DNA of 43,055 nt from Methanobacteriota archaeon. Its GTDB lineage: Archaea > Halobacteriota > Methanomicrobia > Methanomicrobiales > Methanospirillaceae. The notes beneath the pieces were generated by a model, which was not told where the DNA came from, searched no databases, and worked only from the letters and a program-made list of their open reading frames with translations. The position numbers were made by a program, and so were the translations under genes. Position 1 is the first letter of the stretch; every line of letters starts with the position of its first letter. Shown in pieces: positions 30,527 through 40,261 of the stretch. The stretch spans positions 1-43,055 of the forward strand of contig JAKPPB010000050.1 of NCBI GenBank assembly GCA_029547605.1. Reading direction: 5' to 3'.

Positions 30527-31837
30527 TCATTTGCTGGTGAGCGTCGAGAGGAACTCTTTCATCGAGGTCAATACCCTCTCCACCGCCCGGCCCGTGATCG
30601 GGCCATCGCAGTAGCTGCACGAGAGCGTAAGGGTGCGGTCGAATGTGCTCGCAGCGATCCCAAAACCCGGGGGGTACTCAACTGGAGGGATGACACAGGC
30701 TGCCATCGTTTGGGGATCCCCAAAGTCAACGCAGGGGTGGGGAAGTATCCCGATATTGCTGATGAACGGGTTTTTCGGATAGCCTTCGATCCGGCTGCGG
30801 CGTTTTGTCTCAAGGAGATGCTCCCGCACCGGGCCAAAGCCCGAAGAAAACATCTCTTCGAGCCGTATCGCAGATCCAATACCCGCGCGGAGGCGTTTCT
30901 TCTCATCCATTGCGCGATGTGCCTCCAGGACCAGATCATCTGGCCGGCCGGGAATTCCTGCAGGGAGCCATACCTCGAACGCAACAGAAAGGTTCGCGAC
31001 GGCAGGGCTCTCGATGCCAGGATGAACGCGGCGAAGGTCGGTGGAGGTGAGGACAGGATAATCGCGGTCTTCCTGGTGAGGGATCTCTCTTTTCACCGAT
31101 GCAAAGAAGGCGGCGAGGAGGATATCGTTCACAGAAACCCCGTGTGTCCGGGAATATGCCTTTACCGCAACAAAGAGCGGGGGTTCGATCGTCCTGACAG
31201 AGTATGCCGGGGTGCCCGGGACACCTGGCTCCCAGGGTAGGCCCCACTCCGCACTCTGGTCGTCGCAGCAGTCCCGTGCCACCGCGCGCTCTTCGGCGGA
31301 AAGCGCGGAAATGAGCGGCTGAAAGGACCTGTCGCAGGGAAACCTTCGGGAAGGGGAGAATACGGAATTTTTCCCAAGTGCCCGGTAAGCGCGAGCACAC
31401 AGGCTGGACACATGCTGGATGCCACGGGCATCGCAGACGGAATGGTTGACGGAGATTATCAGAAGGTCTGTATCTCCTTGAACGAGGTCGAAATGTGCCT
31501 GCGGCCCCGCTCCGGGGTCGATCCTTCCGGTAAGGACTTCCCGCAACGCCGGCTCGCTGTCCCCGCCCTGCCCTGCGACAGAGAAGACCGATTCCGGCCT
31601 AAAAGAGGGAATTGCTTCCCAGTACGGCTCTGCGGCCTCGACAAACCTGCAGGCGAGGAGGGGCTCGGCCTCCATTACACGCTCTGCGGCATGGCGGAGC
31701 CTCCCCTCATCAAGCCTGCCATCAAGTTTGACGACGAGATGCATCGTCTGGTTCCATATCGTGGAGAGCAGGTAGTTCCACTGGTCATTGACCGGCGCGG
31801 GGAACCGGCACTGCTGGCGGAGGTCGGGGTCCTGCAT
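30527..31837 (-). CDS. Stand-alone condensation-domain / alcohol acyltransferase-like protein
   Basis: A 436-residue protein with the two-lobed chloramphenicol acetyltransferase/condensation fold. The catalytic HxxxD is in SVNHSVCDARG (His132, Asp136), a variant of HHxxxDG whose first His is Asn. Further family features are NQTMHLVVKLDGRLDEGRLRHA at the N-terminus, SVNDILLAAFFASV, STDLRR, and SNIGILP near the C-terminus. Relatives include NRPS condensation domains and PapA/alcohol acetyltransferases that make esters or amides; there is no carrier protein or adenylation domain nearby. It is divergent from the MBL-STAS fusion gene. The acceptor and acyl donor are unknown. Confidence 0.8.
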   Translation of the reverse strand: MQDPDLRQQCRFPAPVNDQWNYLLSTIWNQTMHLVVKLDGRLDEGRLRHAAERVMEAEPLLACRFVEAAEPYWEAIPSFRPESVFSVAGQGGDSEPALREVLTGRIDPGAGPQAHFDLVQGDTDLLIISVNHSVCDARGIQHVSSLCARAYRALGKNSVFSPSRRFPCDRSFQPLISALSAEERAVARDCCDDQSAEWGLPWEPGVPGTPAYSVRTIEPPLFVAVKAYSRTHGVSVNDILLAAFFASVKREIPHQEDRDYPVLTSTDLRRVHPGIESPAVANLSVAFEVWLPAGIPGRPDDLVLEAHRAMDEKKRLRAGIGSAIRLEEMFSSGFGPVREHLLETKRRSRIEGYPKNPFISNIGILPHPCVDFGDPQTMAACVIPPVEYPPGFGIAASTFDRTLTLSCSYCDGPITGRAVERVLTSMKEFLSTLTSK

Positions 31838-31940: not shown

Positions 31941-34025
31941 TTGGCTGAAATGGAGAACCAGGTATGGCAGCCCCTTCCCGGAGTGGAGGGGGTGTCGATC
32001 TATCCATTCCTCCGCAAGGTGGATATCATATCCTCGAACTCGTACCTGGTCGCGGCTCCTGGACTCATTGTCCTGGTAGACCCGGGTGGCCTTCCCGGGC
32101 AGGCAGACGCTCTCCTCCGTGAGATAGGAACGCTCATCACAGAGAAGCCGCGCCCTGTGCTTGTCTGCCTCACGCACGTCCACCTCGATCACTGCCACCA
32201 GCTCCTCCACCACCCGGGGTTCCGGGCGATTCCCCGCATGCTGGTCGCGGTCCAGGAGTCAGGGGCGAGGGCTCTCGAGGCCCATGACCGCGCGGCAACC
32301 ATCGCGGACCTGATCCGCCAGGAGGTGGGGACGACAAGAATTGACATCAGGCTCCTTCCACCCGGCATGGGGGGAGAACACAGGGACGAATTGCTCAACT
32401 TTGCCGGGACCTCTGTGATCACCTGCCTTGACTCCCTCCCGCTGGGAGGGGGACTCACCATGCCAAGGCAGACCCTGCCGCTCGAAGGAGATGCGGCGAT
32501 CGAGTTCCTCCCTGCCCCCGGCCACAGCCCCGACAGTATCTGCATCCGGATAGGGGAGACGCTCTTTTTAGGAGACCTCCTCTTCTCCACTGCCCCGGGT
32601 GTTGCAGGGCTGAAGGGATGGGACCAGAAAGCACTCCTCTCCACCCTTGACCGGGTGATCGCGCTCCTGCAGAAAGGCTGCATCACGCTCTGCCTTCCAG
32701 GACATGGGCGGCCGCTCGATGCCGCAACCACCGTGCGCACGCTCCAGGCAATGAAGAAGGAAGCCTCCCGCCTGGAGGGGATCGAGAGCGTGAACCCTGA
32801 GTGGGCGAAGGACACCGCGGCATATGCAGGGGAACTCATGGGAGAAGTGGACCGCCTCTTCACGGTCATTGCCGGGAGGCTTGTGTACGTCGCCCATGTC
32901 CTCGACGAGCTTGAGGAGGCAGGGGAGGCGGAGAGGTTCCGGGGTATGATCGACAGTGACCTCGTCGACGAGCTGCTCTCTGATTTCAACCGGTTCTCTC
33001 TTGATTTCCACTCCGGGCAGTTACTCGATATACACCTGGCGCTCAAGGCGAACCAGATCTCCCAGAAACTTGAGAGAGTGTTCCGGGGAGAGGTGCTCGG
33101 GTCAGTTCTCGATCTCTCGCTTGTCAGCCGAGTGGGCAGGCTTCTTGAAGACTATACTGTCACGTTCCGTGGTTTCCGGCCGCGGATCGATCTCGCCGCA
33201 ACCGACCTCTCTGCTGCTGTCGGGGGTGTGGTCGCGGCGGTCTCCTGCCCCCCATACGAGGAGGATGGCATCACCGAGGCCCGGACAGAGGAGGAGTTTG
33301 CCCGGGCACTCGCGGTCAGGATCGCCTACGTCAACCCCTTCGAACATCTTGACATCGAATTTTCCCCTGGAGGGAACCTGCCACCTGCGATGATGGACAG
33401 GGAACGCTTCGGAGACATGTTGTTGTACCTCCTGGAGAAGGTCTCGGTCGGGGGAGCACGAAGCCTGCACATAGCGACCGGAGGGGTAAAAGATCGTGTC
33501 TGGGTGAAACTCCAGTTCCCGGTATCCTCTGCATTGATGGAAGAGAACGTGCGGCGTTTCGCAATCAGAAGCTGCAGCCTCTCCAACGGGGCCTGCAGCG
33601 TATCTTCGACGCGGGAGAATACCACTGTTCTCATAGAATATCCGGTAGCCGGACAGGGCCAGGATGCGGCAATGGGCGAAGTCACATCCGGGACAGAAGC
33701 CGCAATATCCAAAGGGCACCTTCTCATCGTCCCTTCTGGCAGGATCGACGGGGCCTCGGCGCCGGTGCTCGAAGGGGATATCTCAAGGGCGATCGATCAA
33801 GGAAACAGGAGGATCGTGATGAACCTCTCGTCTGTCGATTACATGAGCAGCGCAGGCCTGAGGGTCCTTCTCGCAGCAATGAAACGGTTGAAGAAGGAAA
33901 ACGGGAACCTGGTCCTCTGCGCCATGAAGCCCTTTGTACAGGAAGTCTTTGACCTGACCGGGTTCTCCCGGATCTTCACCATCTGCGAGTCCGAGGAAGA
34001 GGCAACCCGTCTCCTCGGCCCCTGA
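31941..34025 (+). CDS. Fusion protein: metallo-beta-lactamase, degenerate kinase-like and STAS domains
   Basis: A 694-residue soluble protein with an unusual order of domains. Residues about 15-275 are an MBL hydrolase with THVHLDHCH (near 78-86), PAPGHSPDS, LGDLLF and LPGHGRP. Residues about 370-425 are helical and resemble a dimerisation/His-phosphotransfer region without an obvious phospho-His. Residues about 495-575 (MDRERFGDMLLYLLEKV to TTVLIEYPV) look like the frame of a HATPase_c domain but lack the N-box asparagines and glycine boxes. Residues about 590-692 are a STAS domain with MSSAGLRVL, where Ser637 aligns with the serine phosphorylated in RsbV-type proteins. The TTG start at 31941 follows AGGTGAT by five bases; ATG 31950 is an alternative. 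It looks like a partner-switching regulator fused to a hydrolase. Confidence 0.85.
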   Translation: MAEMENQVWQPLPGVEGVSIYPFLRKVDIISSNSYLVAAPGLIVLVDPGGLPGQADALLREIGTLITEKPRPVLVCLTHVHLDHCHQLLHHPGFRAIPRMLVAVQESGARALEAHDRAATIADLIRQEVGTTRIDIRLLPPGMGGEHRDELLNFAGTSVITCLDSLPLGGGLTMPRQTLPLEGDAAIEFLPAPGHSPDSICIRIGETLFLGDLLFSTAPGVAGLKGWDQKALLSTLDRVIALLQKGCITLCLPGHGRPLDAATTVRTLQAMKKEASRLEGIESVNPEWAKDTAAYAGELMGEVDRLFTVIAGRLVYVAHVLDELEEAGEAERFRGMIDSDLVDELLSDFNRFSLDFHSGQLLDIHLALKANQISQKLERVFRGEVLGSVLDLSLVSRVGRLLEDYTVTFRGFRPRIDLAATDLSAAVGGVVAAVSCPPYEEDGITEARTEEEFARALAVRIAYVNPFEHLDIEFSPGGNLPPAMMDRERFGDMLLYLLEKVSVGGARSLHIATGGVKDRVWVKLQFPVSSALMEENVRRFAIRSCSLSNGACSVSSTRENTTVLIEYPVAGQGQDAAMGEVTSGTEAAISKGHLLIVPSGRIDGASAPVLEGDISRAIDQGNRRIVMNLSSVDYMSSAGLRVLLAAMKRLKKENGNLVLCAMKPFVQEVFDLTGFSRIFTICESEEEATRLLGP

Positions 34026-38695: not shown

Positions 38696-38804
38696 GTACA
38701 TAGCGCAGGTCAAAACGTTGGTTTTCAGGAAGGAGCCGGCATGTGACTCCCTGACCGCGGGTTGAAAGCGGGTGGGGATATGGCCCGCCTTGCCTGCAGG
38801 AAAG

Positions 38805-38813
38805 TATTTTATC
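38805..38813 (+). promoter_or_regulatory. TATA box of the MEDS-PAS gene
   Basis: TATTTTATC lies 86 bases before the GTG start at 38891 and 59 before ATG 38864. Transcription would begin near 38832, which excludes the longest open-frame start at 38762 as the true one. Confidence 0.35.
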
Positions 38814-38890
38814 ACGGTATCTCCTCTCTCAACGTACCAAAAAACCGGCACCCTCTGAAGAGAATGGGTGCAGGAAAAGGGGGAGGAGAG

Positions 38891-40261
38891 GTGAACGCCA
38901 CAGGACAGGGAAACCCATGCGGCCTGGTGCCAGGAGACCACGCGGCAATTCTGTGCCGACATGAAGGAGAGATGGAGCAGGTGACCGTCTCTCTCCTGGA
39001 TCAGTGCCGCCGGGAGAGATGGCGACTCCTTTACATCGCAAGATCAACGCAGCAGAATCCAATTGTCGAGCGGTTGAAAAATCTCAAAGATTATGGTGAA
39101 GGAGTAATCGCGCTGTCCCACGAAGATACCGAGTTCCACAGGAGTTTTGTCAGTGCAAGGAGTGCACGCGCCTATATCCTGCGGCAGGTGGAAAGTGCAC
39201 GATCGGCCGGCTATTCTGCGCTGTGCATCATGCGGGAGGTTCCGCCTATTGCACCACGGCGCTCGAGCCAGCATCTCGTGAGTGACATGGCAGGACTCGA
39301 TGCACTCTTTGGCGAAAAAAGCCTCATCCTCCTCTGCTGCTACCAGATGGACCTCTTTTCGGCCCAGGTGCTCCAGGACGTCATGCGGACACACCCTTGC
39401 ATTTTGCTCGGGGGACGGGCGATTGAGAACCTCTTCTACATCCCGGCAACCGATGCTATGAAGTATAACCTCCCATCCCTTGAACTGCAGCACTGGCTGG
39501 ATACCCTCCTGAAGCTCTCCTTGGCGAAGGAAGAGCTTGCCGAGAGCGAGGACAGGTTCCGTGATCTCCTGGAGAATGCCAACGACCTTATCCAGAGCGT
39601 CGGTCCTGACGGGAAGTTCCTCTATGTCAACAGGGCCTGGCGGGAGACAATGGAGTACGGCCCTGATGAAATCCCCGGGCTCAATCTCTTCGATATCATC
39701 GACCCCTCATCGATGGAGCACTGCAGGGCCACGTTTGGCAGGGTGATGGCAGGGGATGATGCAGGGCGTATCGAGGCCACGTTCCGGTCCAAGTCAGGGC
39801 GGAAGGTGTACGTTGAAGGGAGAGTGAACTGCCACATCTTGAACGGAGTTCCGCAGTATACACGCGCGATATTCCGTGATGTAACGGATCTCAAGAGAGA
39901 GGAGATGGCCCGAAGGGAACGAGAGCAGGTGCTCGACGCAGTCCTGAACCTCACACCCCATGCAACGGTGGTGACCACTCCCGATGGCACCATGCTGTAT
40001 GCAAACAAGCCAGCCCGCGCAATCTCCCCTGCGACAGGAAGGGATGGCGTGCACGGGAAACCGTTCTGGTCGCTGCTCTCGCCCGGTGACGAGGAGGAGG
40101 TGAAACGGAGCATGGTAGAGGTGATGGAGGCCGGGGGAAATGCAATATCCTGCCGCGTCAGGGGGTGCGATGGGAGAGACTGGGAGGTAGAGTGGAGCAG
40201 GGCACGTTTTGGATCAAGGGAGAGCAATTATCTTATGGCAGTTTTCAGGAGGGCCGAATAG
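38891..40261 (+). CDS. Sensor protein with MEDS domain and two PAS domains
   Basis: A 456-residue cytoplasmic protein. Residues about 10-190 form a MEDS (methanogen/methylotroph DcmR sensory) domain, with PGDHAAILCRHEGEMEQVTVSLL and YSALCIMREVPP. A short helix leads to PAS 1 (about 220-330: DRFRDLLENANDLIQSVGPDG to AIFRDVTDLKREE) and PAS 2 (about 348-456). There is no histidine kinase, HATPase or DNA-binding domain, so output must pass to another protein. The GTG at 38891 was chosen because GGAGG (38882-38886) lies four bases before it and it follows the TATA box; ATG 38864 is an alternative. DcmR-type sensors respond to small organic compounds; the ligand here is unknown. Confidence 0.83.
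   Translation: MNATGQGNPCGLVPGDHAAILCRHEGEMEQVTVSLLDQCRRERWRLLYIARSTQQNPIVERLKNLKDYGEGVIALSHEDTEFHRSFVSARSARAYILRQVESARSAGYSALCIMREVPPIAPRRSSQHLVSDMAGLDALFGEKSLILLCCYQMDLFSAQVLQDVMRTHPCILLGGRAIENLFYIPATDAMKYNLPSLELQHWLDTLLKLSLAKEELAESEDRFRDLLENANDLIQSVGPDGKFLYVNRAWRETMEYGPDEIPGLNLFDIIDPSSMEHCRATFGRVMAGDDAGRIEATFRSKSGRKVYVEGRVNCHILNGVPQYTRAIFRDVTDLKREEMARREREQVLDAVLNLTPHATVVTTPDGTMLYANKPARAISPATGRDGVHGKPFWSLLSPGDEEEVKRSMVEVMEAGGNAISCRVRGCDGRDWEVEWSRARFGSRESNYLMAVFRRAE

Follow-up and report, generated by a model that had tools for sequence, protein, structure and literature searches.

The window, that is, the whole 43,055-nucleotide stretch of archaeal DNA which was analysed, carries at 31941–34025 a single ORF of 694 codons specifying a metallo-β-lactamase (MBL) domain, a pseudo-kinase and a STAS domain; features of this gene all lie on the forward strand. 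We refer to the family of MBL–pseudo-kinase proteins as MBL-X. The product is 694 residues long if translation starts at a TTG and 691 if it starts at an in-frame ATG at 31950, which is the likely start codon; the domain layout is the same with either. Pfam matches were obtained to Lactamase_B [4.1e-12] at the N-terminus and to STAS [2.0e-23] at the C-terminus, with none between them. The AlphaFold2 model of the whole protein has a mean pLDDT of 90.2 and a pTM of 0.80. The closest named genomes belong to Methanolinea and other Methanomicrobiales.

The three-part ORF is uninterrupted in four further species (75–88% identity to the window protein); its length is kept, and the 23-codon linker preceding the STAS domain is free of stops in 5/5. 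A codon comparison of the five species revealed an excess of third-position change in every domain on either side of this linker, by which measure the domains on both sides are under purifying selection in one reading frame. Since the ORF is intact and this pattern holds across species, we take the fusion to be a genuine single gene and no accident of assembly. That the long ORF arose by chance or through a frameshift is ruled out by the same comparison. An earlier note on this DNA, made from the sequence alone, had placed MBL, kinase-like and STAS domains in one protein, as the five intact ORFs bear out; its proviso that the gene might prove to be two was examined as well, and with one reading frame under selection in five species its reading is not refuted on that count.

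Divergent from this gene, on the reverse strand at 30527–31837, is a gene whose product weakly resembles PapA5-type acyltransferases [3e-5, under the Pfam cut-off]; the gene is kept beside MBL-X in close relatives. Some 4.7 kb downstream (38762–40261) lies a gene for a MEDS-PAS protein [MEDS, 1.2e-13] which also weakly matches an RsbA-type anti-sigma model and is possibly a further signalling protein.

Residues 1–271 (31950–32762; numbered from the ATG) were identified through the Lactamase_B match and the model as an MBL-fold hydrolase domain of the GloB/glyoxalase II-like kind. Most of its residues have a pLDDT above 90, and VIA-align gave a Z of 20.9 to Staphylococcus aureus GloB [7l0b]. 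With GloB and other hydroxyacylglutathione hydrolase-like enzymes, among them BLEG-1 [7ev5], it has in common the fold (Z about 20) and the full set of metal ligands; unlike them it is fused to a pseudo-kinase. Numbered from the TTG, the ligands are H79, H81, D83 and H84 of an HxHxDH motif (32175–32192), H195 (32523–32525), D212 (32574–32576) and H255 (32703–32705). All seven are invariant in 35/35 aligned homologs, where they are among the family's only invariant columns, and the intact N-terminal HxHxDH hydrolase of the earlier note was thus well recognized. Judged from its sequence the metal motif, with HxHxDH, H, D and H all kept, is of the zinc-hydrolase kind that is typical of hydrolases. 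The intact ligands would fit a metal sensor and an enzyme equally, and no sequence feature pointing to a substrate of the MBL domain could be identified.

Because MBL entries swamped the fold search when the whole 691-residue model was used, residues 276–570 were modelled separately (mean pLDDT 87.5, pTM 0.84). On structural alignment the best 50 PDB rows were all of histidine-kinase type (Z 13.8–16.1), headed by ZraS [9jfj; Z 16.1, 132 residues at 2.3 Å]. Foldseek was concordant, returning kinase structures with pyruvate dehydrogenase kinases, which belong to the same fold class, lower in the list. HHalign related the middle region to the histidine kinases of its own genome [96%, 2e-9] over a span that begins at the second DHp helix and takes in the entire ATPase domain; by the same method no relation of the pseudo-kinase to RsbW-type kinases was seen (1.9%). 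Scanning this region of 35 homologs against Pfam yielded nothing convincing, and a sequence search of the PDB gave marginal kinase matches only (ZraS 0.04, AdeS 0.08 and ThkA 0.08).

The resemblance to the DHp-CA fold of histidine kinases is strong in the CA part, while the helical part superimposes merely loosely. The latter, a DHp-like region (residues 283–411, 32796–33182), contains extra helices compared with a plain DHp hairpin; F304, G309, R310, E323, A327, K366, Q369, D388 and R394 are near-invariant in it, and between the closest species it is among the best-conserved stretches of the protein. The CA-type (HATPase) pseudo-kinase domain (residues 412–570, 33183–33659) is the fastest-evolving folded domain in that comparison. 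Its N-box, NLLxNA in active kinases, aligns with YLLEKV, so that the asparagines are replaced by Y493 and K497 (ATG numbering). Among the 35 homologs E496 is nearly invariant and the position of the Mg-binding asparagine is occupied by K or D; the HHalign alignment shows the D-box to be lost and the ATP lid and G2 box to be deleted across the family. No phospho-acceptor histidine is conserved in the middle region of these 35 proteins, the best candidate being position 362 (ATG numbering), where 17 have H and 13 have Q. The domain at residues of about 412–570 therefore has its fold in common with the core of sensor histidine kinases such as ZraS [9jfj] and HK853 [2c2a], but differs from them in having no conserved phospho-acceptor histidine, N-box asparagine, D-box, lid or G2 box.

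On the model and the alignments we consider the middle region to be a pseudo-kinase which derives from a histidine kinase and has lost its ATP site. The earlier note had described a kinase-like HATPase without nucleotide-binding residues, and structure prediction, fold search, HHalign and the alignment of homologs all agree with it; modelling might have produced an unrelated fold and gave that of a histidine kinase. The outline of a dimerisation domain which it had also noted is correct as to the DHp-like helices, and needs refining in that no phospho-acceptor histidine is conserved and additional helices are present.

A disordered linker (pLDDT <50; residues 571–588 from the ATG, 33660–33713), whose sequence is free to change among the five species while its length is constant, leads to the STAS domain at 33711–34022. 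This is of the RsbV/SpoIIAA type according to Pfam [2e-23], TIGR00377 [5.5e-24] and its position in the tree. Ser637 (TTG numbering; codon 33849–33851), in the motif YMSSAGL, is the predicted phosphorylation site, as had been proposed from the sequence alone; it presumably holds the position of the serine phosphorylated in RsbV (Ser56) and SpoIIAA (Ser58). Its counterpart is kept in the separate STAS orthologs.

MBL-X is found in Methanomicrobiales and Methanothrix-type archaea, mostly as a separate gene specifying about 540–600 amino acids beside a separate STAS gene. The three-domain fusion occurs in five Methanolinea-type species, and the initial view of it as the basic unit has to be given up, since most species have MBL-X and STAS as separate adjacent genes. 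STAS is fused to MBL-X or lies less than 350 bp away in 28 of 36 loci, against a chance expectation of about 0.2%, given that the 2.26-Mb genome from which the window comes encodes four STAS domains. In a tree built on few columns, with 22 of its 63 branches drawn open and well-supported clades alone used, the fused STAS domains and the MBL-X-adjacent STAS genes form one clade (support 96/91), and the STAS genes that belong to PP2C-RsbW operons in these genomes fall outside it. From this clade we infer that the fused STAS domain is orthologous to the STAS gene adjoining MBL-X in relatives with split genes, and that the fusion is a recent joining of two adjacent genes in the Methanolinea group. 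A plasmid search revealed no relatives.

The genome of origin possesses an operon composed of genes for a STAS protein, a membrane PP2C phosphatase of the 5TMR-LYT type and an RsbW-type kinase (G000:C114:25568–27732, also L175:7521–9835), located on another contig than the window, far off, and with a STAS gene of its own. The kinase gene (G000:C114:25568–25942) has a HATPase_c_2 match of 8.7e-34; the SpoIIE/RsbU-type PP2C gene (G000:C114:25978–26550) is adjacent to STAS and RsbW, and its product joins a membrane sensor (5TM-5TMR_LYT) to a SpoIIE domain. In the RsbW-type kinases the ATP motifs are preserved, with N52, D82 and G107–G110 invariant in ten relatives including that of this genome.

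In 18 genomes MBL-X has a PP2C gene, an RsbW gene or both no more than about 7 kb away; many relatives have in the cluster a PP2C of the membrane type (5TMR-LYT plus SpoIIE) together with an RsbW-type kinase whose ATP motifs are intact. Order and orientation vary between lineages, Methanothrix (L122, L140) included, which argues against simple inherited synteny. Among 393 genomes of the phylum MBL-X is present in 46 and a strong SpoIIE PP2C match in 81; every one of the 46 has the PP2C, and a further 35 have the PP2C and no MBL-X (Fisher p 4e-38, a value which ignores kinship, the genomes being related so that the counts overstate independence). Within the order, five PP2C-negative genomes (G006, G022, G035, G040 and G045) are devoid of MBL-X though sister species have both; the first four, as species of one genus, are devoid of both alike. 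In one genome of 1.9 Mb (G354) MBL-X is represented by a fragment only and the PP2C gene contains an in-frame stop (C1:1784691–1785440 and C1:553379–553933), an apparent case of joint decay.

These associations bear directly on a proposal in the earlier note, namely that the MBL domain or its ligand stands in for the PP2C phosphatase with the pseudo-kinase as a scaffold. The idea was suggested by the presence of MBL, pseudo-kinase and STAS on one chain. A PP2C of the RsbU/SpoIIE type is always present where MBL-X is, often in the same gene cluster, and replacement of the phosphatase is thereby excluded as a general explanation. The complete STAS-PP2C-RsbW operon in the genome of origin and the intact ATP motifs of the RsbW-type kinases also speak against such a role, which we regard as highly improbable. 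The broader part of that proposal, a tie to partner switching, has fared much better: orthologs adjoin STAS, SpoIIE/RsbU-type PP2C and RsbW-type genes, and MBL-X is very probably linked in function to the partner-switch module.

A second type of protein is associated with the archaeal Rsb module. It is about 430 amino acids long and has an N-terminal STAS domain followed by a conserved domain of some 320 residues which has no Pfam match and carries the motifs SLGLGALG, TDG, LHNHGVVF and DMRHLLDST. It is present in 33 of 61 genomes, each of which has a SpoIIE PP2C, and often adjoins the RsbW gene; examples include L053:12147–13451, L056:5346–6653, L031:9547–10845 and, in the genome of origin, G000:C33:5082–6350 (L176). 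We regard it as a candidate output of the switch, in rivalry with MBL-X or alongside it.

MBL-X also occurs in Smithella-type bacteria, in three copies (L135, L138 and L139) with no STAS gene nearby. In two of these loci (L138:7730–11749 and L139:3937–7947) it follows, at a distance of 27 bp, a gene for a 746-residue protein, which we take to be a probable tungsten aldehyde ferredoxin oxidoreductase. The bacterial copies were probably acquired by horizontal transfer from methanogens, and their neighbourhood may hint at a metabolic context for MBL-X. Such copies, together with the freely evolving linker of the fusion, would suit a metabolic hydrolase that lies near signalling genes by history alone and was fused to STAS by neutral read-through. 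We think it improbable that the proteins share no function, for the linkage to STAS in 28/36 loci comes in differing orders and orientations, PP2C accompanies MBL-X in 46/46 genomes, and the fused STAS domain is itself under purifying selection in five species.

MBL-X requires the Rsb module and the module occurs without MBL-X, which makes it an accessory component and, most simply, an output; the gene counts, with PP2C often without MBL-X and never the reverse, fit such an accessory output. We consider it most likely that MBL-X is an output or a co-partner of the switch. As to the specific scheme, in which the MBL-X-STAS protein is the output of an archaeal Rsb-type switch and a hydrolase is gated by STAS via the pseudo-kinase, the chances appear about even. 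The membrane PP2C and the RsbW-type serine kinase, encoded elsewhere, would set the phosphorylation of the RsbV-like STAS domain. Unphosphorylated STAS would dock on MBL-X, at the histidine-kinase-like module that has no ATP site, and thereby presumably switch the attached MBL hydrolase, control running toward the MBL domain; once the RsbW-type kinase had phosphorylated Ser637, the contact between STAS and pseudo-kinase would be lost. In the Methanolinea-type species the STAS partner is fused to its receiver, which would make the switch intramolecular. A histidine-kinase fold with a lost ATP site, as model and alignments depict it, fits a docking module. Given the rapid evolution of the CA part, STAS may instead make its contact with the conserved helical part. 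Against the scheme count the siting of the PP2C-RsbW operon on a different contig with a STAS gene of its own, the Smithella-type copies with no STAS gene nearby, and metal ligands that would equally suit a sensor.

The same gene-linkage data could be read in the opposite direction. MBL-X would then be an input whose MBL domain responds to a metal, a ligand or the redox state, and its pseudo-kinase would sequester the STAS protein or free it to act on the RsbW-type kinase, in the way that components of the stressosome feed into the sigma-B switch. The metal site is intact, the architecture derives from a sensor kinase, and a diiron oxygen sensor influencing CheA arrays provides a precedent. 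We consider this unlikely, though less so than the other alternatives, as the metal ligands make up a zinc-hydrolase motif and a membrane sensor domain (5TM-5TMR_LYT) is already present on the PP2C. The oxygen-binding diiron protein ODP of Treponema denticola has an MBL fold. Like MBL-X it serves kinase signalling; it differs in acting on CheA as a separate protein without STAS, whereas the metal motif of MBL-X is of the hydrolase kind.

The output scheme has its closest counterparts in the Bacillus SpoIIAA/SpoIIAB/SpoIIE and RsbV/RsbW/RsbU systems, with which the archaeal module has in common a STAS protein with a phosphorylatable serine, a SpoIIE-type PP2C and an RsbW-type kinase whose ATP motifs are intact. 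As in Bacillus the genes are clustered, in relatives of the window species and as one operon in its own genome. Unlike Bacillus, archaea have no known sigma factor, and here an MBL-pseudo-kinase is attached to STAS, to which it is fused in the window species. A set of anti-sigma, anti-anti-sigma and serine phosphatase proteins, the same three components in the same group of organisms, was described for the Methanomicrobiales in 2009 (PMC2686161). Its authors noted that archaea have no known bona fide sigma factor and that the targets of the module cannot be deduced from sequence; their text makes no mention of a lactamase. We propose MBL-X as a candidate for the missing partner of this set. 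Outputs other than a simple sigma factor, such as those of SypA and BtrV, have been reviewed for bacterial STAS-only proteins (PMC8256260). Lactamase and STAS domains go unmentioned in a 2018 census of archaeal two-component proteins (PMC5847659), and no description of the MBL-pseudo-kinase family was found in the open-licence literature on MBL, STAS, partner switching, archaea and histidine kinases.

Methanomicrobiales carry a SpoIIA-type kinase, phosphatase and antagonist, and what these act on has been a standing question from 2009 or earlier (PMC2686161); MBL-X is a concrete, testable candidate target, tied to the module by fusion, neighbourhood and co-occurrence. We suggest, with slightly less than even confidence, that the partner switch of methanogens acts directly on an enzyme, the MBL domain being gated via an ATP-less kinase fold which serves as STAS receptor, in some species within a single chain. 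If this is true, a histidine-kinase fold would have been reused as a non-catalytic module between a serine-phosphorylated STAS domain and an enzyme.
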